64,000 nt of DNA, from positions 100,695-164,694 of the forward strand of contig RGUL01000001.1 of the NCBI GenBank assembly GCA_010027845.1, in the 5' to 3' direction. The stretch's first letter is position 1. The number at the start of each line of letters is the position of its first letter. The position numbers and the translations under genes are program-made. The notes under the pieces are model-generated. The model was given only the letters and a program-made list of their open reading frames with translations. It was not told the origin of the DNA and searched no databases. Shown piece by piece: positions 16,337 to 33,704 of this stretch. Origin of the DNA: Gammaproteobacteria bacterium (lineage in GTDB: Bacteria; Pseudomonadota; Gammaproteobacteria; Steroidobacterales; Steroidobacteraceae).

Positions 16337-17536
16337 ATGATCTCTCCTTCCGAAGCCGACGCGCTGATCGGCAGGCATTTGAACTGCCTGCCGATCGAGT
16401 CGTTGCCGCTCATGCAATGCAGCGGCGCAGTGCTGCGCGAAAACGTTTATGCCGAGCGCGATCAACCCCCCTTCGATCGGGTGGCGATGGACGGCGTGGC
16501 GCTCGATTCGCGCGCGGTACGCGACGGGCGCCGGCGGTTTCGCGTGCAGGCGATGCAAGCGGCGGGCGATGCGCCGCTGCGTCTCGAGGCGAGCGACGCG
16601 GCGATCGAAATCATGACCGGCGCGTCGTTGCCGGCGGGTTGCGATGCGGTCGTACCGGTCGAACAACTGCTGCGCGCCGACGATTCGATCGAACTCGACG
16701 AGCGCGTGCGCGTGGCGCCGTGGCAGAACGTGCATCGCCGCGGCTCCGATTGCAGCCAAGGCAGTCTCTTGCTCACGGCGGGCTCACCGCTCGGCGCGCC
16801 GGAGATCGCGGTCGCAGCGGGCGCCGGTATGCCGCGCATCCGGGTGAGCGCACAACCGACCATCAGCGTCATCTCAACCGGCAACGAACTTGTCGAGCCG
16901 GGCGAGCCAGTCGAGCCGCATCAGGTGCGGCGCTCGAATGCGTACGGCATCCTCGCCGCCTTACGTCGCCGCGGCTTTCAAAGAATTGCCGACGATCATC
17001 TCGCCGACGATCTGCCGACGCTGATCGCGCGCCTGCGCGTACAGCTCGACACGCACGACGTGTTGATCCTCTCCGGTGGCGTGTCGATGGGCAAACTCGA
17101 CCTCGTACCACAAGCACTCGCCGCGCTCGGGGTGCGCGAGGTGTTCCACAAAATCAGCCAGCGACCCGGCAAACCGATGTGGTTCGGGATCGGCCCGCAA
17201 GGCACTGCGGTATTCGCGTTGCCTGGTAATCCGGTCTCGACGCAAGTGTGCCTCGCACGTTACGTCGTTCCGGGCTTGCACGCGGCGATGGGCGGCAGCG
17301 AGCCGAACGTCGAAAAAATTGCGATCGCTGCGCCGCTAGAGATCAAACACGGTCTGACTTCGTTGATCCCGGTGCGCATCGAGACCGACGACTGGGGTCG
17401 CCCTTGGGCGCATCCGCGGCTCACTAACGGCTCCGGCGATTTCACCGCACTCGTCGGCACCGACGGCGTGGTGGAATTACCGCCCGGGCCGAACGAGTAT
17501 GCGAAAGGGTTCGTGACCCGGCTGTTTCGTTGGTAA
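16337..17536 (+). CDS. moeA: Molybdopterin molybdotransferase MoeA
   Basis: DRVAMDGVALDSRA; EIMTGASLPAGCDAVVPVEQ; SVISTGNELVEPGEP; LILSGGVSMGKLDLVPQAL; FALPGNPVSTQVCLARYVVP. Confidence 0.93.
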   Translation: MISPSEADALIGRHLNCLPIESLPLMQCSGAVLRENVYAERDQPPFDRVAMDGVALDSRAVRDGRRRFRVQAMQAAGDAPLRLEASDAAIEIMTGASLPAGCDAVVPVEQLLRADDSIELDERVRVAPWQNVHRRGSDCSQGSLLLTAGSPLGAPEIAVAAGAGMPRIRVSAQPTISVISTGNELVEPGEPVEPHQVRRSNAYGILAALRRRGFQRIADDHLADDLPTLIARLRVQLDTHDVLILSGGVSMGKLDLVPQALAALGVREVFHKISQRPGKPMWFGIGPQGTAVFALPGNPVSTQVCLARYVVPGLHAAMGGSEPNVEKIAIAAPLEIKHGLTSLIPVRIETDDWGRPWAHPRLTNGSGDFTALVGTDGVVELPPGPNEYAKGFVTRLFRW

Positions 17537-17589
17537 GTTTCGAACTCATCATCGTGAACGATCTCAATGAAAACCCGCCGGCCGCGACC

Positions 17590-18618
17590 ATGACGACCAC
17601 CGACTTGCGTCGTAACGTCGATGCACTCGGCCGCCCGATGCGCGACCTGCGCATCTCGGTGATGGACCGCTGCAATTTTCGTTGCCCGTATTGCATGCCG
17701 CAGCACACCTTTCACGAGGGCTATCGTTTTTTGAAATCCGCCGAACGCTTGTCGTTCGAAGAAATCGTGCGCTTGACGCGCATCGCCACCACGCTCGGCG
17801 TGCGCAAGCTGCGCATCACGGGCGGCGAACCGCTGTTGCGTCCGAATCTATCCGATCTGATCGGCGATCTCGGCACGTTACCGGGTATCGACGACATCGC
17901 ACTCACGACCAACGGCGTGCTGCTCGCAAAATACGCAACTGAACTCAAAGCTGCCGGACTCACGCGCATCACGGTCAGCCTCGACAGTCTCGACCCGCAG
18001 GTGTTCGCCGCGATGAGCGGTGGTTACGGTGGTGTCGAGCAAGTGCTCGAGGGCATCGACGCTGCGCGCACCGCAGGACTCGCGCCGATCAAAGTCAACG
18101 TAGTCGTGCAACGCGGCCTGAACGATCACACCGTGCCCGAGCTGCTACAGCGCTTTCGGCACACGGGCGTGATCGTGCGCTTCATCGAATACATGGACGT
18201 CGGCAACCGTAATCATTGGCGTCCGGAACTCGTCGTCTCGTCGGCCGAGCTCGCGGCCCGCATCGGTGCGCGCTGGCCACTGCGGCCGCTCGAATCGAAC
18301 TATCGCGGCGAGGTCGCCGAACGCCATGCCTACGCAGACGGCGGCGGCGAGATCGGCTTCATCTCCTCGGTGACGCAGCCGTTCTGCGGCGCCTGCTCAC
18401 GGGCGCGGTTGTCGTCCGACGGCTCGCTCTACACTTGCCTGTTCGCCACCGAAGGCGCCGATCTGCGCGGTCCGATGCGCGCGGGTGCTAGCGATAGCGA
18501 ATTGCTGGAATTACTGCGTAACATTTGGAATGGTCGCCGCGATCGCTACAGCGAGCAGCGCGCCGAGTTGCGCGCCCGCACCGACCGCAAAGTCGAAATG
18601 CATTACATCGGCGGTTGA
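17590..18618 (+). CDS. moaA: GTP 3',8-cyclase MoaA (radical SAM)
   Basis: LRISVMDRCNFRCPYCMPQHTF; RKLRITGGEPLLRPNL; FCGACSRARLSSDGSLYTCLF; C-terminal GG. Confidence 0.95.
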   Translation: MTTTDLRRNVDALGRPMRDLRISVMDRCNFRCPYCMPQHTFHEGYRFLKSAERLSFEEIVRLTRIATTLGVRKLRITGGEPLLRPNLSDLIGDLGTLPGIDDIALTTNGVLLAKYATELKAAGLTRITVSLDSLDPQVFAAMSGGYGGVEQVLEGIDAARTAGLAPIKVNVVVQRGLNDHTVPELLQRFRHTGVIVRFIEYMDVGNRNHWRPELVVSSAELAARIGARWPLRPLESNYRGEVAERHAYADGGGEIGFISSVTQPFCGACSRARLSSDGSLYTCLFATEGADLRGPMRAGASDSELLELLRNIWNGRRDRYSEQRAELRARTDRKVEMHYIGG

Positions 18619-18630
18619 GAATTGACACCG

Positions 18631-19143
18631 ATGACCCGAGCGAACCGCGCCAAAAAAACACCCGGCAAGTTGACGCATTTGGATGCGGCACGCAGACCGA
18701 CCATGGTCGACGTCGGTGACAAAGAAATCACGCGGCGCGAGGCGACCGCCGAAGCACGCATCCGCCTGCCCGCGAACGTCGCTAAAGCGCTTGCCGCAAG
18801 CGGTCATCGCACCAAAAAAGGCCCGGTATTCGATACGGCGACCATCGCGGCCGTGCAAGCGGTCAAACGCACGCACGAGTTGATCCCGTTTTGTCATCCG
18901 CTGCCGATCGAGCACTGTGCACTCGACATCGACGCGGCGCGTTCGGGGCTGATCACCATTCGCTGCACGGTGCGCACGTCGCACACCACGGGCGTCGAAA
19001 TGGAAGCGCTTACCGGCGCAAGCGTCGCGGCCTTGACGATCTACGACATGTGCAAGGCTTTGTCGCACGACATCGTCGTCGAGCGCGTCCGCCTGCTCGC
19101 CAAAAGTGGCGGCCGTCGTAATTACACCAGGCGCAGCCGATGA
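18631..19143 (+). CDS. moaC: Cyclic pyranopterin monophosphate synthase MoaC
   Basis: [90 protein letters not shown]. Confidence 0.93.
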
Positions 19144-19997
19144 CACCGCCCGATGCGATCTACGGGCTCGTGCTCGCGGGCGGCCGCAGCACGCGCATGC
19201 ATCGCGATAAAGCCGCGCTCGCCTATCACGGCCGTAGCCAACTCGCCGAAACGTTCGCGCGCCTCAGTGTCGTGACGCAGCACGCATTCGTGTCGGTGCG
19301 CGCCGACCAAACCGCCGATCCCTTGCGCAGCGCCTTTCCGCAAATCGTCGATCGGACCCTGGTCGATGGCACCGCGGTCGAGGGCCCGCTCGCCGGCATT
19401 CTCGCCGCGCAGGCCATGCACCCCGAAGTCGCGTGGCTAGTGGTTGCTTGCGACCTGCCGTTCCTCGACGAGGCGGTGTTGCGCGAGCTCGTTGCGCAGC
19501 GCGATCCCCGATCGTTCGCGACGGCGTTTCGTTCGGCGCACGATGGCTTGCCCGAGCCCTTGTGCGCCATCTGGGAACCGCGCAGCGCTGCACCACTCGC
19601 CGCCTACGCCGCCGCGCATCGCAACTGTCCGCGCAAGTTCTTGATCGAGTCGGGCGCGACGCTGCTCGATCTGCCGAATGCGCGCGCACTCGACAACGTC
19701 AACTCGGCCGCCGATTATTGGCAGACTATGTCGACGCTCGACCCAAACTCGCTCAACTGCACTGTGCACGTGCAATATTTTGCGCTGCTGCGCGAACAAG
19801 CTGGCACCACGCGCGAAACGCTCACCACGCCCGCGCGTAACCCGCGCGAACTCTACGATGCGCTGCGACTACGCCATCCGTTCACGCTCGACGCCGAACT
19901 GCTACGCGTTGCAGTCAACGGCGAGTTCGGTGATTGGCAACAACCGCTCGCTGAGGGCGACACGGTGGTGTTCATTCCGCCCGTCGCGGGCGGCTGA
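19140..19997 (+). CDS. MobA-MoaD fusion protein
   Basis: N-terminus [32 protein letters not shown] (MobA); C-terminus [23 protein letters not shown]...[29 protein letters not shown] (MoaD, terminal GG). Confidence 0.9.
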
Positions 19998-20008
19998 GCG
20001 CAGTCGCG

Positions 20009-21568
20009 ATGTCACGTTTCTCCTTCAGCCACGTCGCGCTCGAAGTGCCGACGCTGCAAGCCTCGCTCGAAAATCGCAGTTGCGGCGGCTATGCGGCATT
20101 CGAAGGCTGGGTGCGCGATCACAACGAGGGGCAACGCGTCACGCATCTCGAATACGAAGCGTTCGAAGAGTTGGCGGTGCGCGAGGGCGAACGCATCATC
20201 GCCGAGGCCTGCGCGCGCTTCGGTGTGACCAATGCACGCTGCGTGCATCGCGTCGGCGATTTAGCACTCGGTGCGATCGCCGTGTGGGTGGGCGTGAGCG
20301 CTCCACACCGCGATGAAGCATTTCGGGCCTGTCGCTACATCATCGACGAAGTGAAGCACCGCGTCCCGATTTGGAAGAAAGAACATTACGTCGGCGGCGA
20401 TTCGGGCTGGGTGAACTGCGAGCGTTGTGCCACCGCGCCGCTCGCCGCGCATGCGCAACACGATCATGACCACGACCATGATCATCACCACGCGCGCGCG
20501 ACGGTCGCGCGCAGCGATTACTCGCGACAAATCGCGCTGCGTGAAGTGGGCGACGACGGCCAACGTCGACTACGGGCGGCGCGCATCGGCGTTGTCGGTG
20601 CGGGCGGTCTCGGCGTGCCGGCGTTGCAATATCTCGCCGGCGCCGGCGTGGGCCATCTGGTCGTCATCGACGGCGACTCACTCGAGCCGTCCAATCTGCA
20701 TCGGCAAACTTGGTACGCCCTGGCCGATTGCGGCCATCCGAAAGCGGAACTCGCCGCCGCCCGCATCCGTGCCCTGAACCCCGAAGTCGCCGTCACCGCG
20801 CACCACACGAAACTCGATACCCGGAACGCACTCGAACTTTTGCGCGACTGTGATGTGGTGCTCGATTGCACCGACAATTTCACCACCAAGTTCGCACTCA
20901 ACGACGTTGCGCACGCGCTCGCCAAACCCGTGGTGTTCGCGAGCGTGCATCAATACGAAGGTCAGCTGCAGGTGGTCGACCCGACTCGTAACGGCGCGTG
21001 TCTGCGCTGCATCTGGCCGCAGGCCACGCGTGACGGCGTGGTCGGTAACTGCGCCGAAGCCGGTGTGCTCGGCCCGGTGCCAGGCTTGCTCGGCACGCTA
21101 CAAGCGCTCGAGACGCTCAAAATTCTGCTCAACTTGCCGGGCCGGCTCGGCGACGAACTTTTGGTGGTGGACGCGCTCGGCGTCGAGGTCACGCGCGTGC
21201 GCGCCCGGCGCGCCGCCGAATGTACCCCCGGTGCCTGCGTGCGCAGCGCGACGGCGAACGACGCTGCGACCGCGCCGACCGCCGCAATCGACTGTAGTTT
21301 CCAACGACTCGAACCCGCGGTCGCTGCCGGCTATGTGGTGATCGACATTCGTGATGCCGACGAGGTCGCGCGCCAACCGTTGCCGCATCCGGCGGTGCGT
21401 CACGTACCGATGAACGAACTTTTGAGTGGTCGCAACCTGCCGAACGATGCGCGCTATCTACTCGTCTGCGCGCGTGGCGTACGCAGTCGTGGCGCCGCCG
21501 AAACGCTGCGCGATCGTGGTATCGCCGAAGTTTATTCGCTGCGTGGCGGGGCTCAGGCCCTGGTCTGA
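20009..21568 (+). CDS. MoaE-MoeB(ThiF)-rhodanese fusion protein with His/Asp-rich linker
   Basis: Moa[38 protein letters not shown]; linker [15 protein letters not shown]; Moe[41 protein letters not shown]; rhodanese: [31 protein letters not shown]...[21 protein letters not shown]. Confidence 0.92.
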
Positions 21569-22839: not shown

Positions 22840-23978
22840 TGCATCACCAAATCGTCGCGATGGATGAGTTCGTCGCGACCACGGATGCCGATCAACGATT
22901 CGATTTCGGCGCTCTGGCGACCGATGATGCGCGCGGCATCGACGTCACCATAGGCAACGATCCCACGCGCGACTTCGCGACCCGCCGCATCGACCACGCT
23001 CACCGTGTCGCCACGTTCGAACCGGCCGGCGACGCGGCGCACGCCTGCCGGCAGCAAACTTTTACCGCCGCGCAGCGCGCGTAACGCACCATCGTCGATC
23101 ACCAGCGAGCCCGCCGGTCGCAAAGTGCCGGCGATCCATTGCTTACGCGCCGCCACCGGCGATGCGGCGGGACGGAACCACGTGCAACGCGCACCCTGCT
23201 CGATGCGACGCACGGGATGCCGCGGCGCCCCCGGCGCGATACAAAAGTGGCAACCGGCGGCGACGGCGATGCGCGCCGCGATGATCTTGGTCGTCATACC
23301 CCCACGACCGACGTCCGAGCTCGACCCACCGGCCATCGCCTCGATTTCCGACGTGATTTCGCGCACCACGGGGATGAACTGCGCACTCGGATCTCTGTTC
23401 GGGTCGGCGGTGTACAGCCCGTCGATGTCGGACAGCAGCAACACGCAATCCGCACTCACCATCTGCGCCACGCGCGCGGCCAGTCGATCGTTGTCGCCGT
23501 AACGAATCTCGGCGGTCGCTACCGTGTCGTTTTCGTTGATGACCGGTATGGCGCCGTGCGCGAGCAACGTGTTCAGGGTCGCACGCGCGTTCAAATATCG
23601 ACGCCGGTCTTCGCTGTCGTCGAGCGTGAGGAGCACTTGCGCGACCGGGATGTCGTGCGCTTCCAGCAGTTCTTTATACGCGTGCGCGAGTCGGATTTGC
23701 CCGACGGCTGCCGCCGCCTGACTTTCTTCGAGCCGCAACGCACCTTTGGGTAGGCCGAGATGTCGACGGCCGAGCGCGATCGCGCCCGAAGAAACCAGCA
23801 CCACCTCGCGGCCCTGCCGACGCAGTCGAACGACGTCCTCGACGAGTGTCTCGAGCCAAGCGCGATTCAGGCGTCCACTCGCCGCGTCGACGAGCAACGC
23901 AGAGCCAACCTTCACCACCACGCGATGCGCGCGGGCGAGCGGGTTCGAAGCGGCATTGTTGGCGGACTTGGTGGGCAT
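22836..23978 (-). CDS. proB: Glutamate 5-kinase
   Basis: [74 protein letters not shown]-terminal PUA region. Confidence 0.95.
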
Positions 23979-24087
23979 GGGGGACGCAGCGCGAGCAGCC
24001 GTCACTATATCATCGCGGTTTGCGCACGCTCGCCGCAGGCCGGTAAAATCGCGCCGCTTTTCAGTTTCCCTTCGAGGGGTGTCGATT

Positions 24088-24417
24088 GTGAGTAGAGACA
24101 AGGAACCAGTCCCGGGACAGTGGTACGAGAACGTCGAGGAGGAAGAAACCTTCCGCGTGCTCTCGCTCGACGAGGACCATGAGTTGGTCGAGATCGAATA
24201 CCTCGACGGCGAGATCGAAGAAATCGACATCGACGAGTGGCACGAGATGGACCTCGAACTCACCGAAGAGCCAGAGGGCTGGTCAGAAGACGAGGACGAC
24301 GACGAGGAAGAAGACGAAGAGGAAGAAGACCTCGACGACGACGAAGATGACGAGGACGACGACTGGGACGAGGACGAGGACGAAGACGACGACTGGGACG
24401 ACGACGACGATCGTTGA
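24088..24417 (+). CDS. Small conserved protein with extremely acidic Asp/Glu C-terminal tail
   Basis: [81 protein letters not shown]...DDDDDR; GTG start at 24088. Confidence 0.75.
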
Positions 24418-24523: not shown

Positions 24524-27471
24524 ATGAAATTCTCGGTTCTGCTTTGGGGTATCCCGCAGGCGATGCGCCTGATGGCGACACTCTATCCGGAATACGCGGC
24601 CCGTCTGCGCGAGCGCAACCTTGTCGCGCAGTTCCGCCTGCAAGACGAACCCAAAGGCCGCTGGATCGAATTGCGCGACGGCAAAATCCGCTCCCGCGCG
24701 GGCTTGCATCCGAAGCCCGATCTCACCGTGCGCTTCAAAAATCGCGAAATCGCCGAGAGCTTCCTGACGCCGCCGTTCGACATGCTCGAGCGCATCGACG
24801 CAGCCAAAAATTTCAAGATCGGCATCGACGGCCCGGACGAGCTCGCGGTGTGGTTCATGGCGACGGTCGCGCGGCTCGAGACCATCACCTGGACGTCCGG
24901 CACCGACATGGGCGACGGGGTCACGCGCTACACCAACGGAACTAACTCCGGCCCGATCTTCGTCTACGTCAAAGACGGCAAGATCATCCGCACGACACCC
25001 ATCGACTTCACCGACGACGATGCACCGTCTTGGTCGATCGAGGCGCGCGGCAAAACTTTCAAGCCCTCGCGCCGCACCACCGTCGCATCGCACGGCATGT
25101 GCCAAAAGTCGATGGTGTACTCGAAGAACCGCATTCTCCAGCCGATGAAACGCGTCGACTTCGACCCCGATGGCGAGCGCAACATCCAAAATCGCGGGAA
25201 GTCCAAATTCGTGCCCATCAGTTGGGACGAAGCCACCGACATCGTCAGCAAAGAAATCAAGCGCGCCAAAGCCGTCGGCCCGGGTGCAATCGCGGTCGCC
25301 AACGGCTCGCACCACCAATGGGGCAACCTCGGGCACTACTTGAGCGCCTTCAATCGTTTTTGGAACCTGATCGGCGTCACCAAACTCGTGCACAACCCGG
25401 ACAGCTGGGAAGGCTGGTACTGGGGCGCAATGCACCACTGGGGCAACAGCCTGCGACTCGGCTGCCCGGAGTTTTACGGCACCGTCGAAGACTGTCTCAA
25501 AGAAGCCGAATTGATGGTGTTCTGGTCCAGCGACCCCGACGCGACCTACGGCTTCGACGGCACCGAGCGCCGCGAGTGGGCGAAGCAACTCGGCATCGAG
25601 ATGGTGCACATCGACCCGTACCTCAACCACACCGCCGCACACCTCGGCGGTAAGTGGATTTCGCCGAAGCCCGGCACCGACCCAGCGCTCGCCCAAGCGA
25701 TCTGCCACGTCTGGATCACCGAAAATCTCTACGACAAAAAATTCGTCACCGAGCGTGCGACCGGCTTCGAGGAATGGAAGGCCTACATCCTCGGTGAGAG
25801 CGACGGCGTCGCGAAAACACCAGAGTGGCAGGAGACAGAAACCGGCGTCCCGGCACGCGACGTGCGTGCGCTCGCGCGCAAGTGGGGCACTAAAAAAACC
25901 TATCTCGGTGCCGGTGGCTGGGGTGTGGGTTTAGGCGGCGCGAACCGCGGCCCGATGGGCGTGCAGTGGGCGCGCATGATGACGATCTTGGGCGCGATGC
26001 AAGGCTTCGGTCGCCCCGGTTCGAACTTCGGCAACCTGCAATTCGGCGCGCCGCTCGACTTCAACTTCTACTTCCCCGGCTACGCCGAAGGCAGCATGTC
26101 GGGTGATTTGCAATTCAGCGCGAACTCGGCGAACAACTATCAGCGCATGCCGCACATCGTCACCATGAGCTCGGTGCGGCAATCGATTCCGCGCATCTGG
26201 TTCCCCGAAGCGATCATGCAAGGCAAAGCGATGGGCTACCTCACCGACGTATCGTCGGTGACCGGTCAGTTTTTCCCCTTCGGCTACCCATCGCCCGGTC
26301 ACGTGCGCGTCGAGATGCTCTACAAATACGGCAGCGCCTCGTCGACTCGAACCGCTGGGTGCGCATGTACCAGCACGAAAATTTGAAGTTCGTCGTCAAC
26401 CAATCGGTGTGGTGGGAAGGCGAAACGCCGTACGCCGACGTCATCCTGCCGGCTTGCACGGTGTTCGAACGTTGGGACATCAGCGAGTGGTACAACGTCG
26501 GTGCGGGCTACGTGCACCACATGTACTCAATGAACAACCACCGCGTCATCTCGATGCAACACAAAGCGATCGAGCCGCTCGGCGAATCGAAATCCGACTA
26601 CGACATCTTCCTCGCCATCGCGACGAAACTCGATCTCGGCGCCGTGTATTCGGAAGGCGGCAACACCGAACTCGACTGGTGTAAGCGCGTGTTCGATTCG
26701 TCGGATCTCTCCAAACGCATCACCTGGCGTGAATTTTTGAAGAAGGGCTATTACGTCGTGCCCGCCGACCCCGAACCGGCGCGGGCGCCGGCCGCGAACC
26801 GCTGGTTCTACGAAGGCCGCAAGAAAGACACGCCCGAGCCGTATCCGCTGCCTTCCGATTACGTGAACGGCTACGGCAACGGCCTACAAACCCCCTCCGG
26901 CAAATTCGAATTCATCGCGCAAACTTTGAAGCGCATCGACGATCCCGATCGCCCGCCGCTGAATAAGTACATGCCGCTCTACGAGAACAAGCAGGCCGAG
27001 CCGGAGCTCGCGAATTTCCCGCTGCAATTGCTCTCGCCGCACTCGCGCTATCCGTTCCACGTCATGGGCGACGACGAAGGCAGCAGCTTGCTCGACATCC
27101 GCGAGCACCGCATTTACAAAGATGGCCATTACTACCTCGTCGCACGCATCAGCCGCGAGGATGCCGCCGCGCGCGGCATCCACGACGACGATCTGATCCG
27201 ACTCTGGAACCATCGCGGCTCCGTGGTTTGCGCGGCCCAAGTGACCGACCGCTTGCGGCCGGGCGTGATCAGCGCCCCAACCGCGTCGGCGCAATATCGC
27301 CCGATGGGTGAGCCCGGCAAGTCGACCGATCTCGGCGGTTGCGTGAACTTACTCAACCCCAGCAAGCCGATCACCAAAAAATCGCACGGTATCCGTCCGA
27401 ACACCACGCTCATCCAAGTCGAGAAGTGGACCGGCGTCGACACGTGGAAGCCGTTGGCGGAGAGCGCGTGA
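24524..27471 (+). CDS. Molybdopterin oxidoreductase large subunit (pyrogallol-phloroglucinol transhydroxylase/DMSO reductase-like) with N-terminal SCP2-like domain; apparent frameshift near 26340
   Basis: ORF 24524..26386 (MKFSVLLWGIPQAMRLMATLYPEYAARLRERN...HGMCQKSMVYSKNRILQPMKRVDFDPDGERN...FVPISWDEATDIVSKEIKRA) continues in another frame in 26359..27471 (VDSNRWVRMYQHENLKFVVNQSVWWEGETPYADVILPACTVFERWDISEW). Confidence 0.8.
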
Positions 27472-28316
27472 TGACCAAAAAATGGAATCTCGTCGTCGAC
27501 GTCGAGCGCTGCGACAACTGTCGCGCCTGTTTCCTCGCGGTCAAAGACGAGTACATCGGCAACGATTTTCCCGGTTATTCGGCACCGCAACCGGCGCAGG
27601 GCCATAACTGGTTGGAGATCCGACGCCGTGAGCGCGGCAGCTACCCCATCATCGATGCCAACTTCATGCCGGTGACCTGCAACCACTGCGACGACGCCCC
27701 GTGTATGAAAGTCGCGCGCGACGGCGCGGTGCGCAAACGCGCCGATGGCATCGTGTTGATCGATCCGGTGAAGTCCAAAGGTCAAAAACAAATCGTCGAC
27801 GCCTGCCCGTACGGCGCGATCAGCTGGAACGCCGAACGCGAGATTCCGCAAGCATGGACCTTTGACGCGCATCTACTCGACCGCGGTTGGGAGAAGACGC
27901 GCGCCGAACAGGCCTGCCCGACCAACGTATTCCGCACCCTCAAAGTCGACGATGCCGAGATGCAGCGCCTCGTGCAGGCGGAGGGCCTGCAAGTCGATCG
28001 ACCCGAACTCGGTACGAAGCCGCGGGTGTACTACAAAAATTTGCACCGGATGTCGCACTGCTTCGTCGGCGGCACCGTGGTGCACCGGGTGGGCGGCGTC
28101 GAGGAATGCGCCGCCGGCGCGACGGTCGTGCTACACAAGGACGGCCGGGAAGTCGCCCGTACCACCACCGACACCTTCGGCGAATTCAAGATCGACCACC
28201 TGCCCGCGGGCAGCGGTCGGTACGACCTTGAGATCAGCGCGGCGGCCGGACGGACGAGAACCGGCTTCGAAATCGCCGATTCCAGCCCCTATCTAGGCCT
28301 CTTGACCCTCGCTTGA
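27471..28316 (+). CDS. Transhydroxylase-like iron-sulfur small subunit with C-terminal carboxypeptidase-regulatory-like domain
   Basis: MTKKWNLVVDVERCDNCRACFLAVKDEYIGNDFPGYS; CNHCDDAPCMKVARDGAVRKRADGIVLIDPVK; DACPYGAISWN; C-terminal GATVVLHKDGREVARTTTDTFGEFKIDHLPAG; ATG a few nt either side of the large-subunit stop. Confidence 0.85.
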   Translation: MTKKWNLVVDVERCDNCRACFLAVKDEYIGNDFPGYSAPQPAQGHNWLEIRRRERGSYPIIDANFMPVTCNHCDDAPCMKVARDGAVRKRADGIVLIDPVKSKGQKQIVDACPYGAISWNAEREIPQAWTFDAHLLDRGWEKTRAEQACPTNVFRTLKVDDAEMQRLVQAEGLQVDRPELGTKPRVYYKNLHRMSHCFVGGTVVHRVGGVEECAAGATVVLHKDGREVARTTTDTFGEFKIDHLPAGSGRYDLEISAAAGRTRTGFEIADSSPYLGLLTLA

Positions 28317-29368: not shown

Positions 29369-30325
29369 ATGTTTCGCGCGTTCGGCACCGCTCTCGTCCG
29401 CTGGTTCGATACGGGCCCGTTGACCGTCGAGGTCGACGGGCACGAGCGAGCGGCGTTGCCCGATCGCATCGAGTGGGCGCGCATCCTGCCGTTCATTTTG
29501 ATGCACGCGACCTGCTTGTGCGTGATCTGGGTCGGCTGGAGCCCGGTAGCGGTGGCGGTCGCGATCGGCGCGTACCTCGTGCGCATGTTCGCGATCACCG
29601 GCTTCTACCACCGCTACTTCTCGCATCGCTCGTTCAAAACTTCGCGCGTCGGTCAATTCGTCTTCGGCGTGATCGGCGCGACGGCCGTGCAGCGCGGACC
29701 GGTGTGGTGGGCCGCGCATCACCGCCACCACCACGCCTACTCCGATAAACCGGAAGACGTGCACTCGCCCGCGCAGCACGGATTTTTGAAGTCGCACATG
29801 GGCTGGTTCTTGACCTCGAACGGCTTTCGACCGGATCTGCGACGCGTGCGTGATCTGTTGCAATTTCCAGAACTGCAATGGCTAGACCGCTTCGACATCT
29901 TGGTGCCGGTGGCATTCGCAGTCGGCATGTTCGGCCTCGGCGTACTGCTCGAGGACGTCGCCCCGGAACTCGGCACGACCGGCTGGCAGATGTTGATTTG
30001 GGGCTTCTTCATCTCGACCGTCGCCTGCTACCACGGTACGTACACCATCAACTCGCTGTCGCACGTGTTCGGGCGTCAGCGTTACCGCACCGGAGACACG
30101 AGTCGCAACAATTGGTTGCTCGCGATCATCACGCTCGGCGAGGGGTGGCACAATAACCACCATCACTACCCGAGTGCGACGCGACAAGGTTTCTACTGGT
30201 GGGAAGTCGACATCACCTTTTACGTGCTGAAGCTGCTCAGCTGGCTCGGCATCATCTGGGATCTGAAGCCCGTGCCCACCTCCGTGCGCGACCACTCGTC
30301 GCGCCGCATCGTCCCACTGCGCTGA
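29369..30325 (+). CDS. Acyl-CoA/fatty acid desaturase (delta-9 type)
   Basis: FYHRYFSHRSFKTSR; WWAAHHRHHHAYSDKPEDVHSP; GEGWHNNHHHYPSATRQGFYWWEVD histidine boxes. Confidence 0.92.
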   Translation: MFRAFGTALVRWFDTGPLTVEVDGHERAALPDRIEWARILPFILMHATCLCVIWVGWSPVAVAVAIGAYLVRMFAITGFYHRYFSHRSFKTSRVGQFVFGVIGATAVQRGPVWWAAHHRHHHAYSDKPEDVHSPAQHGFLKSHMGWFLTSNGFRPDLRRVRDLLQFPELQWLDRFDILVPVAFAVGMFGLGVLLEDVAPELGTTGWQMLIWGFFISTVACYHGTYTINSLSHVFGRQRYRTGDTSRNNWLLAIITLGEGWHNNHHHYPSATRQGFYWWEVDITFYVLKLLSWLGIIWDLKPVPTSVRDHSSRRIVPLR

Positions 30326-30341
30326 TCACGCGAGCGCGCCG

Positions 30342-31643
30342 ATGAGCCGGGTCGCCATCATCGGCACCGGCATCGCCGGCATGACGGTCGCGCACCATCT
30401 GCATCGCGACCACGACCTGACGCTTTTCGAAGCCGCCAACTATGTCGGCGGTCACACGGCGACGGTCGACGTCGAGCACGGCGGCAAACGTTACGCCGTC
30501 GACACCGGCTTCATCGTCTTCAACGACTGGACCTATCCGAATTTCATCGCACTGCTCGACGAACTCGGCGTCGCCTGGCAGTGGTCCGACATGAGCTTTT
30601 CTTTGCGTTGCGAACGCAGCGGCCTCGAATACAACGGCACCAGCGTCAACGCACTGTTCGCGCAACGACGAAATATTTTTCGCCCGTCTTTCCTGCGCAT
30701 GATCCGCGACATCCTGCGCTTCAACGAGCGTTGCCGCGCCCTGCTCGCGGATGAACGGGGTTCTTTGACCCTCGGTGAATATTTAGGACGCGAAGGATAT
30801 TCACAAGCCTTCGTCGAACGCTACATCGTGCCGATGGGACGGGCGATCTGGTCGGCGACCGATCGCGCGATGCTCGAATTCCCGGCGCGTTTCTTCGTCG
30901 ATTTCTTCGATCGTCACGGATTTTTGAACGTCGACGATCGACCGGTGTGGCGCACCGTACGCGGTGGTTCGCGCGAATATGCGCGCAAACTGGTGGCGCC
31001 GTTCCACGATCGTATCGCGCTCTCGACACCGATCCGCCGCGTGCGGCGCGATGCGACGGGCGTGACCGTGACGACCGCACGAGGCGACGAAGCGCGTTTC
31101 GATCACGTGTTCTTCGCCTGTCATTCGGACCAGGCGCTTGCGATGCTTGATGATGCGAGCACGGCCGAACGCGAGGTGCTCGGTGCGTTTCCTTACCAAA
31201 CCAACGACGCGACGCTGCACACCGATGCGCGGCTGCTGCCGCGACGGCCACTCGCACGGGCGGCCTGGAACTATCACCTGACGGATCGTCCGCAAGAACG
31301 CGTGCCCGTCACGTACGACATGAACACACTGCAGTCGATCGATGCGCCCGTGCGATTTTTGTTGACCCTCAATCGCGAGGCTGACATCGACCCCACGACG
31401 ATCATCGATCGCTATCGCTACGACCACCCGGTGTACACGCCCGCCGCGGTTGCTGCCCAAGCCGAACGCCGACGCGTGAGTGGTGTGAATCGCAGTTACT
31501 ACTGCGGCGCCTACTGGCGCTACGGCTTTCACGAAGATGGCGTCGTGAGCGGTCTTTGGGCCTTGCAGGATTTTGCGCAGGCGACGCAGGGTGTGCCGCC
31601 GCCCGCCCCGATCCTCGCACCGACGCGTCGTTCGCGGGGCTGA
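30342..31643 (+). CDS. NAD(P)/FAD-dependent oxidoreductase (amine oxidase-like, COG2907 type)
   Basis: MSRVAIIGTGIAGMTVAHHLHRDHDLTLFEAANYVGGHTATVDVEHGGKRYAVDTGFIVFND. Confidence 0.9.
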   Translation: MSRVAIIGTGIAGMTVAHHLHRDHDLTLFEAANYVGGHTATVDVEHGGKRYAVDTGFIVFNDWTYPNFIALLDELGVAWQWSDMSFSLRCERSGLEYNGTSVNALFAQRRNIFRPSFLRMIRDILRFNERCRALLADERGSLTLGEYLGREGYSQAFVERYIVPMGRAIWSATDRAMLEFPARFFVDFFDRHGFLNVDDRPVWRTVRGGSREYARKLVAPFHDRIALSTPIRRVRRDATGVTVTTARGDEARFDHVFFACHSDQALAMLDDASTAEREVLGAFPYQTNDATLHTDARLLPRRPLARAAWNYHLTDRPQERVPVTYDMNTLQSIDAPVRFLLTLNREADIDPTTIIDRYRYDHPVYTPAAVAAQAERRRVSGVNRSYYCGAYWRYGFHEDGVVSGLWALQDFAQATQGVPPPAPILAPTRRSRG

Positions 31644-31650
31644 TCGCGAG

Positions 31651-32427
31651 ATGTTGGCCGATCGCAATAGTTGCCTCTACGTCGGCCAGATTCGACATCG
31701 GCGGCATGCCCCGCGCCGCAACGACTTTCGCTACCGCATCTACCTCAATTGCATCGACCTCGACGAACTCGACCGCATCTTCGCGCGGCGCTGGTTTTGG
31801 TCGGTGAATCGGCCGAATCTGGCATCGTTTCGCCGTAGCGATTTTCTCGGCGACCCCACGGTGCCGCTCGATCGCGCAGTGCGTGACCGCATCGAGGTGG
31901 AAACGGGTATACGACCGAGCGGACCGATCCGGCTCGTCGCACACCTGCGGCATTTCGGATACAACTTCAACCCGGTGAGTTTCTACTACGTGTACGATGC
32001 CTCCGGCAAAAATCTGGAATTCGTCGTGGCCGAGATCACTAACACCCCCTGGGACGAACGTCATGCGTACGTTCTGCCCGTCGCGAGCGCCGAGCGCGTC
32101 GGTGCGCACGTCCTGCGCTGGCAATTCGACAAACGCTTTCACGTCTCGCCGTTTTTGCCGATGGACATGCGCTATGACTGGCGCTTCTCGATACCGGGCG
32201 ATCGACTCGACGTCCACATGGAAAATCGTCGTGGCGATACGCTCGTCTTCGATGCGACGCTCACGCTGCACCGCGAGCCCTTGAGCGGCACGACGCTCGC
32301 GCGCGCACTATTAGCGTTCCCCTTGATCACGCTCAAAGTGAGCTACGCGATCTACTGGCAAGCGCTGCGTCTGCTGCTCAAGCGCACACCGTTCTTCACC
32401 CACCCCGATAAGTTGCCTGCCCCATGA
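31651..32427 (+). CDS. DUF1365 domain-containing protein
   Basis: CLYVGQIRHRRHAPRRNDFRYRIYLNCIDLDELD; HLRHFGYNFNPVSFYYVYDASGKNLEFVVAEITNTPWDERHAYVLP. Confidence 0.88.
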   Translation: MLADRNSCLYVGQIRHRRHAPRRNDFRYRIYLNCIDLDELDRIFARRWFWSVNRPNLASFRRSDFLGDPTVPLDRAVRDRIEVETGIRPSGPIRLVAHLRHFGYNFNPVSFYYVYDASGKNLEFVVAEITNTPWDERHAYVLPVASAERVGAHVLRWQFDKRFHVSPFLPMDMRYDWRFSIPGDRLDVHMENRRGDTLVFDATLTLHREPLSGTTLARALLAFPLITLKVSYAIYWQALRLLLKRTPFFTHPDKLPAP

Positions 32428-33704
32428 ACGAAGACGTGCGCAAACCTTCCATCGTTCCGGTCGAGGTCGGCTCGCGCCGCGCGTCGTGGCTCGCACGACT
32501 CGGACGCAAACTGTTGTTGTCGCAATTCGCACGATTACGCGACGGCGAACTCACGCTCATCGAACCCGACGGGCGTCGCCACATCTTTGGTCGACGCACG
32601 CCGCGCCTCGATCTCGCCGTACGGCTCGAAGTGCTCGATGCGCAGTTGTATGCCGACGCCGCTTTCGGCGGCACGGTCGGCGCCGGCGAGGCCTATATCC
32701 GCGGTCTTTGGCGCTGCGACGATCTGACCGGCATCGTGCGCATGTTCGTCGCCAACCGCGACATGATGAACGCCGTCGACGGCCGTTGGACGTTCGTCAC
32801 GCAACCCTTCCTGCAGGCCTTCCATTTTTTGAATCAAAACAGCAAGCGGGGCAGTTCGCGCAACATCGCTGCACATTACGATCTCGGCAACGCGCTCTAT
32901 CAATTAATGCTCGATCCGAGCATGGCCTATTCGTGCGCGATCTTCGCAGACGACACGACCACCCTCGAACAGGCGCAAATTGCAAAATTCGACGCGGTCT
33001 GTCGCAAGCTCGATTTGCGCGCGGGCGATCGAGTGGTCGAGATCGGCACCGGCTGGGGCGGGCTCGCGATGCACGCCGCGAGTCGCTATGGCTGTCACGT
33101 CACCACCACCACGATCTCGCGCGAACAACACGACTATGCTCGTGAAAAAATCGCGCGCGCCGGATTATCGGACCGCATCACGTTGCTGCTCGAAGATTAC
33201 CGCGACTTGCGCGGCACCTTCGACAAAGCGATGTCGATCGAAATGATAGAGGCGGTGGGCGCGAATTACCTCGACACCTACCTCGCCAAATGTTCCACGC
33301 TGCTCGCCCCCCACGGCGCGATGCTGCTACAAGCGATCACGCTTCAAGATCAATTTTACGAGCGCGCCAGCAAGTCGGTCGATTACATCCAGCGCTTCGT
33401 GTTTCCGGGAAGTTTCATTCCGAGCGTCGCGCTCATCAGCGACGCCTTGCGTCGCGTCACCGATCTCAAAGTGTTCGCGCTCGAGGACATCGGCCCGCAC
33501 TACACCCGCACCCTGCGCGAGTGGCGACAAAGATTCTTCGGCAATCTCGATGCGGTGCGCTCGCTCGGTTACCCCGAGAGTTTCGTGCGCCTGTGGGAAT
33601 ATTACCTCTGCTACTGCGAGGGCGGCTTCGCGGAGCGACAACTCGGCGACGTGCAACTGCTGCTCACGAAACCCGACTGTCGACTGCGCCCGCTCGCCAT
33701 ATGA
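32424..33704 (+). CDS. cfa: Cyclopropane-fatty-acyl-phospholipid synthase family protein
   Basis: GAGEAYIRGLWRCDDLTGIVRMF; NIAAHYDLGNALYQLMLDPSMAYSCAIFADDTTTLEQAQIAKFDAVCRKLDLRAGDRVVEIGTGWGGLAMHAA. Confidence 0.9.
   Translation: MNEDVRKPSIVPVEVGSRRASWLARLGRKLLLSQFARLRDGELTLIEPDGRRHIFGRRTPRLDLAVRLEVLDAQLYADAAFGGTVGAGEAYIRGLWRCDDLTGIVRMFVANRDMMNAVDGRWTFVTQPFLQAFHFLNQNSKRGSSRNIAAHYDLGNALYQLMLDPSMAYSCAIFADDTTTLEQAQIAKFDAVCRKLDLRAGDRVVEIGTGWGGLAMHAASRYGCHVTTTTISREQHDYAREKIARAGLSDRITLLLEDYRDLRGTFDKAMSIEMIEAVGANYLDTYLAKCSTLLAPHGAMLLQAITLQDQFYERASKSVDYIQRFVFPGSFIPSVALISDALRRVTDLKVFALEDIGPHYTRTLREWRQRFFGNLDAVRSLGYPESFVRLWEYYLCYCEGGFAERQLGDVQLLLTKPDCRLRPLAI

Follow-up and report, generated by a model that had tools for sequence, protein, structure and literature searches.

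The closest described systems to the enzyme treated here are the pyrogallol hydroxytransferase of Pelobacter acidigallici, with large and small subunits AhtL and AhtS (PDB 4v4c), and the resorcinol hydroxylase of Azoarcus (Aromatoleum) anaerobius, with subunits RhL and RhS, and the family to which they belong has very few biochemically known members. Six residues of AhtL, His144, Asp174, Ser175, Trp176, Tyr404 and Tyr560, are those that we take to be the pocket and molybdenum-ligand residues of the 2004 crystal structure, and AhtS has 12 cysteines as ligands for three 4Fe-4S clusters. The SCP2 fold, which usually binds a ligand, is known from other proteins: PF14864 is the SCP2-like C-terminal domain of alkylsulfatases, and in the alkylsulfatase SdsA1 this domain is thought to bind the tail of the substrate and to present it. 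RhL has been listed as a serine-ligated, cytoplasmic enzyme that hydroxylates resorcinol (PMC10100899).

The window analyzed here, a stretch of 64,000 nucleotides from a Gammaproteobacteria bacterium of the Steroidobacteraceae (contig RGUL01000001.1), contains a gene pair of this type. The large-subunit ORF starts with an ATG at 24524 that is preceded by an AGGAGG-like site, and the residues quoted in the preliminary description of this DNA are present in its translation. The features of the locus, numbered from the first letter of the window, are as follows:

16337..21568, plus strand: putative molybdenum cofactor genes, moeA-, moaA-, moaC-, mobA+moaD- and moaE+moeB-like ORFs (named by reading the ORF sequences)
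24524..24895, plus strand: predicted N-terminal SCP2-fold domain, residues 1-124 (AlphaFold2, Foldseek, profile-profile comparison with controls, Pfam over the relatives)
24950..25114, plus strand: AhtL-like first domain (PF21423), residues 143-197 (Pfam E=7.3e-28, 96.4 bits, cut-off 27)
25130..26131, plus strand: molybdopterin oxidoreductase core, first part (PF00384), residues 203-536 (Pfam E=4.6e-18; PDB 4v4c_A E=1e-152)
25310..25408, plus strand: active-site stretch (alignment to 4v4c and of 60 relatives)
26342..26343, plus strand: frame-shifting 13-bp deletion (blastn against intact relatives aligned across the site, same-genus copies included)
26343..27471, plus strand: C-terminal third of the large subunit in a shifted frame, with the end of PF00384 and PF01568, molydopterin dinucleotide binding (ORFs, Pfam)
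27471..28316, plus strand: small subunit of RhS/AhtS type (PDB 4v4c_B E=9.8e-71; Pfam Fer4_11 and CarboxypepD_reg; cysteine count)

Judged by its sequence, the large-subunit gene is that of a molybdenum enzyme of the resorcinol-hydroxylase type, with a catalytic subunit of the DMSO-reductase family. The nearest PDB entry of the catalytic part, aligned from residue 133 on, is AhtL (4v4c_A, E=1e-152), with 49% identity over 885 columns and a Foldseek TM-score of 0.92 on the target, and L003, an intact full-length relative, matched 4v4c with E=1.8e-275. The likeness to the pyrogallol transhydroxylase large subunit given in the preliminary description thus stands, but AhtL is not the closest homolog, since RhL is nearer with about 60% identity. 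This identity together with the fused N-terminal domain places the enzyme in the RhL branch, and homology to A. anaerobium RhL extended over the full length, N-terminal domain included, when it was assessed on L003 in place of the frameshifted window copy. In the active-site stretch, His263, His271, Asp293, Ser294 and Trp295 of the window protein are the equivalents of His144, Tyr152, Asp174, Ser175 (the molybdenum ligand) and Trp176 of AhtL, and the six AhtL residues named above are kept in 60 of 60 aligned relatives, so that the serine ligand and the conserved pocket residues of an RhL-type enzyme are in place; RhL likewise has the residues of the serine-ligated molybdenum site and the equivalents of Tyr404 and Tyr560. 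A Tat-type leader is not apparent, as the N-terminus is taken up by the SCP2 domain, and this is consistent with the cytoplasmic listing of RhL (PMC10100899).

The reading frame of the large subunit is split because 13 bp are deleted between 26342 and 26343. The ORF 24524-26386 covers only the N-terminal two thirds of the enzyme, which runs on in another frame to 27471; intact relatives of the same clade have about 985 residues, and those of the same genus are intact at this site. The window copy may be inactive in this strain, or it may be mis-assembled (the assembly has 182 contigs).

A search of PDB sequences, either by phmmer with the N-terminal domain alone or with a profile of 65 relatives, returned no SCP2 protein, and fold and profile-profile comparisons were used because the domain sequence is too divergent for such a search. 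The AlphaFold2 model of the domain, computed from 65 sequences (window and relatives), had a mean pLDDT of 80.8 and a pTM of 0.72, with the order two helices, four strands, two helices, a strand and a C-terminal helix; the full-length model of a 90%-identical relative had the same domain elements, with block pLDDT values mostly of 86-95 and of 77-82 in two blocks. When the domain model was compared with the PDB by Foldseek, ranks 1-33 were all SCP2-type proteins (probability 0.95-1.00), among them the C-terminal domains of SdsA1, PisA1 and YjcS, AF1534, UbiJ-SCP2, SCP2-like-2 and rabbit SCP2, at moderate TM-scores of 0.4-0.7. Alignment of the domain profile by hhalign with an SCP2 profile, built in the present analysis as an independent set from other genomes, gave a probability of 89.7% (E=1.8e-6), and the reversed, column-shuffled and unrelated control profiles gave 0.06-0.6%. 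With hmmsearch, run with the domain profile against the ORFs of loci matching SCP2 or the alkylsulfatase C-terminal domain, SCP2-type ORFs came first, at E values of 0.06 or worse. In Pfam, the 127 N-terminal residues of the window scored 15.4 bits against PF02036 (E=0.025), below the cut-off of 21.3, and the window sequence did not reach the curated cut-off of either SCP2-fold family, PF02036 or PF14864; when 65 relatives were scanned singly, 21 matched PF02036 and nine PF14864 (best E=0.0014), and any other family was matched by at most two of the 65. The predicted structure and the profile-profile comparison confirmed residues 1-124 as a divergent SCP2-fold domain, as structure comparison and profile homology both place it in this fold family, and the earlier reading of the first ~125 residues as SCP2-like, which turned on the presence of this fold in a structure prediction, has held. 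The fold and the order of elements are those of the PF14864 domains of SdsA1 and PisA1 and of the PF02036 proteins UbiJ and SCP2, with about 10-22% identity; in the alkylsulfatases the domain is likewise joined to a catalytic domain but lies at the C-terminus, whereas here it is N-terminal and on a molybdenum enzyme. As for other SCP2 proteins, the single Pfam-level one of the genome adjoins a UbiE-like gene and was taken as UbiJ. UbiT is an SCP2 protein of the anaerobic ubiquinone route, where it occurs with UbiUV, and this route was considered as an analogy only.

The preliminary description had proposed a search for the same fusion elsewhere, and the fusion proved to be general in the part of the family that was read. 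Relatives were taken from contigs of one genome per species, and among the best 80 of 264 the domain was present on all 79 with an N-terminus in hand, with the match starting at residue 1-6; the sole exception is on a truncated contig. More distant members that lack the domain, besides the crystallized AhtL, may exist. On a plasmid of Aromatoleum anaerobium LuFRes1, RhL carries the SCP2-fold domain, which Pfam did not call at E 0.001, and the neighbors of the RhL/RhS pair are an E1/E2/E3-like dehydrogenase cluster and also a sigma-54-type regulator. From the strain and the cluster, we take this pair to be the characterized resorcinol hydroxylase, presumably that of Darley et al. (2007). Among the plasmid matches listed, all those at 53% identity or more are fused, and the others are S/N-oxide-reductase-like at 28% or less. 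One of the plasmid matches, from Leisingera (H9; query 5-972, 24.5%), was considered as a second fusion and rejected as a TorA/BisC-type protein that lacks SCP2 and has PF18364 as its N-terminal domain. In the genus of the window the gene was found in 14 of 24 genomes, and in 60 related genomes no stand-alone copy of the domain was seen, the matches being the fused gene or its fragments at contig ends. The domain diverges faster than the catalytic part, with 79% against 93% identity to L003 and 39% against 66% to RhL. The SCP2-fold domain is an overlooked trait of the RhL branch and no proof of a lipid substrate, because it is also found on RhL, which acts on small, water-soluble resorcinol. 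Current Pfam and NCBIfam models leave it uncalled at their cut-offs, and a literature search returned no paper joining SCP2 with molybdenum hydroxylases and nothing relevant on the degradation of alkylresorcinols or sorgoleone.

The start codon of the small-subunit gene overlaps the stop codon of the large subunit at 27471, and its product, which has a C-terminal prealbumin/CarboxypepD_reg-like domain, can be aligned with AhtS to the end, this domain included. In an alignment of 53 relatives, eight of the 12 cluster cysteines of AhtS are invariant. The other four are C23, C126, C129 and C145 in AhtS numbering, and the window's clade has lost all of them in each of its 24 aligned members. Of the 29 relatives outside the clade, 27 lack C126 and C129, nine keep C23 and 19 keep C145. 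By ferredoxin spacing these four cysteines would be the ligands of one cluster, so the small subunits of this branch would have lost the ligands of one of three 4Fe-4S clusters, and two clusters are predicted in contrast to the three of AhtS. RhS has the same eight cysteines of two clusters but keeps one more, C145, than the window type.

A tree built from the catalytic part separates the 25 window-type sequences from the others by a branch with full support, and they form a clade of mostly uncultured Gammaproteobacteria with two Acidobacteriota. The position of AhtL Tyr152 is His in 25 of 25 clade members and Tyr in 35 of 35 others, RhL included. Where AhtL has Trp354, RhL has Phe and the clade members have Val or Leu. 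Since the pocket thus differs from those of both AhtL and RhL, the substrate of this large, uncharacterized clade need not be resorcinol. The E1/E2/E3-like pathway genes of the RhL locus have no counterpart beside the window gene, and no conserved catabolic neighbor that would fix a pathway was found in the loci of the clade, whose neighbors are patchy: a different VOC gene, an NmrA-like gene, a TorD/NarJ-type chaperone and moeA. The molybdenum cofactor cluster of the window lies about 3 kb upstream of the enzyme gene in the same direction, and four further loci of the clade likewise have a moeA-like gene close to that of the enzyme. The other group differs in that a cassette recurs in rhizobia and Burkholderiaceae (L055, L078, L103 and L105), in which the SCP2-fused RhL and RhS stand with an extradiol-type VOC dioxygenase, an FAA hydrolase, an acyl-CoA ligase and a FadL/TodX or OmpW pore. 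In counts of genes that matched selected representatives and lay no more than about 8 kb away, with many of the positive loci closely related to each other, the ligase was found in 14, the hydrolase in 16, the dioxygenase type in 18 and the pore in 12 of 46 loci of this group, and none of the four in the 35 loci of the window's clade. The cassette may encode a pathway for a phenol that bears an aliphatic chain, and this pathway would pair an oxygen-independent hydroxylase with an oxygen-dependent ring cleavage.

Together, these data point, with a probability of about 0.75, to a molybdenum hydroxylase of the RhL/RhS branch that is cytoplasmic, has two subunits and carries an SCP2-fold domain at the N-terminus of the large one. 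Fold, family, conserved catalytic residues, the fusion across the sampled branch and the loss of one cluster's ligands were observed; the reaction, the path of the electrons and the role of the domain are proposed from them. Most likely, the serine-ligated Mo-bisMGD center would add a water-derived hydroxyl to the ring of a phenol, and two electrons would leave through the small subunit, via its two 4Fe-4S clusters, for an acceptor. The domain would have been fused before the branch diversified and then retained. Its likeliest role would concern either the aromatic substrate, which it could hold or screen, or the enzyme itself, which it could dock or stabilize; this offers a hypothesis on how oxygen-independent molybdenum hydroxylases choose or reach phenolic substrates. 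A serious possibility, if short of an even chance, is that the domain binds no ligand and is a structural or assembly module, e.g., for cofactor insertion, oligomerization or contact with a chaperone or the electron acceptor; its retention across a broad set of loci with quite different neighbors, its faster evolution and the activity of AhtL without it all fit such a module, but SCP2 folds are usually ligand-binding. It is highly improbable that an ordinary alpha/beta extension resembles SCP2 here by chance, as the sub-threshold Pfam score of the window and the moderate TM-scores are outweighed by the exclusive SCP2 ranks at the top of Foldseek, the hhalign probability of 90% with flat controls, and the matches of 21 and nine of the 65 relatives to two SCP2-fold families.

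A tentative alternative is that the domain is a true carrier of a hydrophobic ligand, which would bind the tail of an amphiphilic phenol (e.g., a 5-alkylresorcinol or a prenylated phenol) and present the ring to the molybdenum site. The SCP2-like domains of alkylsulfatases and UbiJ among the top structural matches agree with this, as do the relatives in rhizobia, in Paraburkholderia and on plasmids that have the pore, the dioxygenase, the hydrolase and a ligase of the PRK07529 subfamily nearby, with pore and ligase in the above fractions of the loci outside the clade; against it stand the same domain on the RhL of a resorcinol degrader, the absence of all four cassette genes from the clade's loci, and the charged Arg46 and Lys95 among the invariant residues of the domain. 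The proposal in the preliminary description that the enzyme may act on a hydrophobic or lipid-like substrate is weakened accordingly, because RhL, with its small hydrophilic substrate, carries the domain and the neighborhood of the clade is bare; only part of the other branch, in rhizobia and Burkholderiaceae, has neighbors that point to a hydrophobic substrate. A wider and unlikely extension would have the whole SCP2-fused branch consist of oxygen-independent hydroxylases of amphiphilic phenols with the SCP2 domain as a built-in carrier, resorcinol being a small substrate to which one lineage adapted, and the window's clade, with His for Tyr152 of AhtL, having a further, undescribed specificity in mostly uncultured Gammaproteobacteria.

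Two further observations were made around the gene pair. The ORF directly upstream of the enzyme gene (23746-24417) encodes a protein whose C-terminal tail consists almost only of Asp and Glu. Downstream, at 29369-33704, desaturase-like, FAD amine oxidase-like, DUF1365-like and cyclopropane fatty acid synthase-like genes, named by reading, stand in a row and form a possible lipid-modification cluster.
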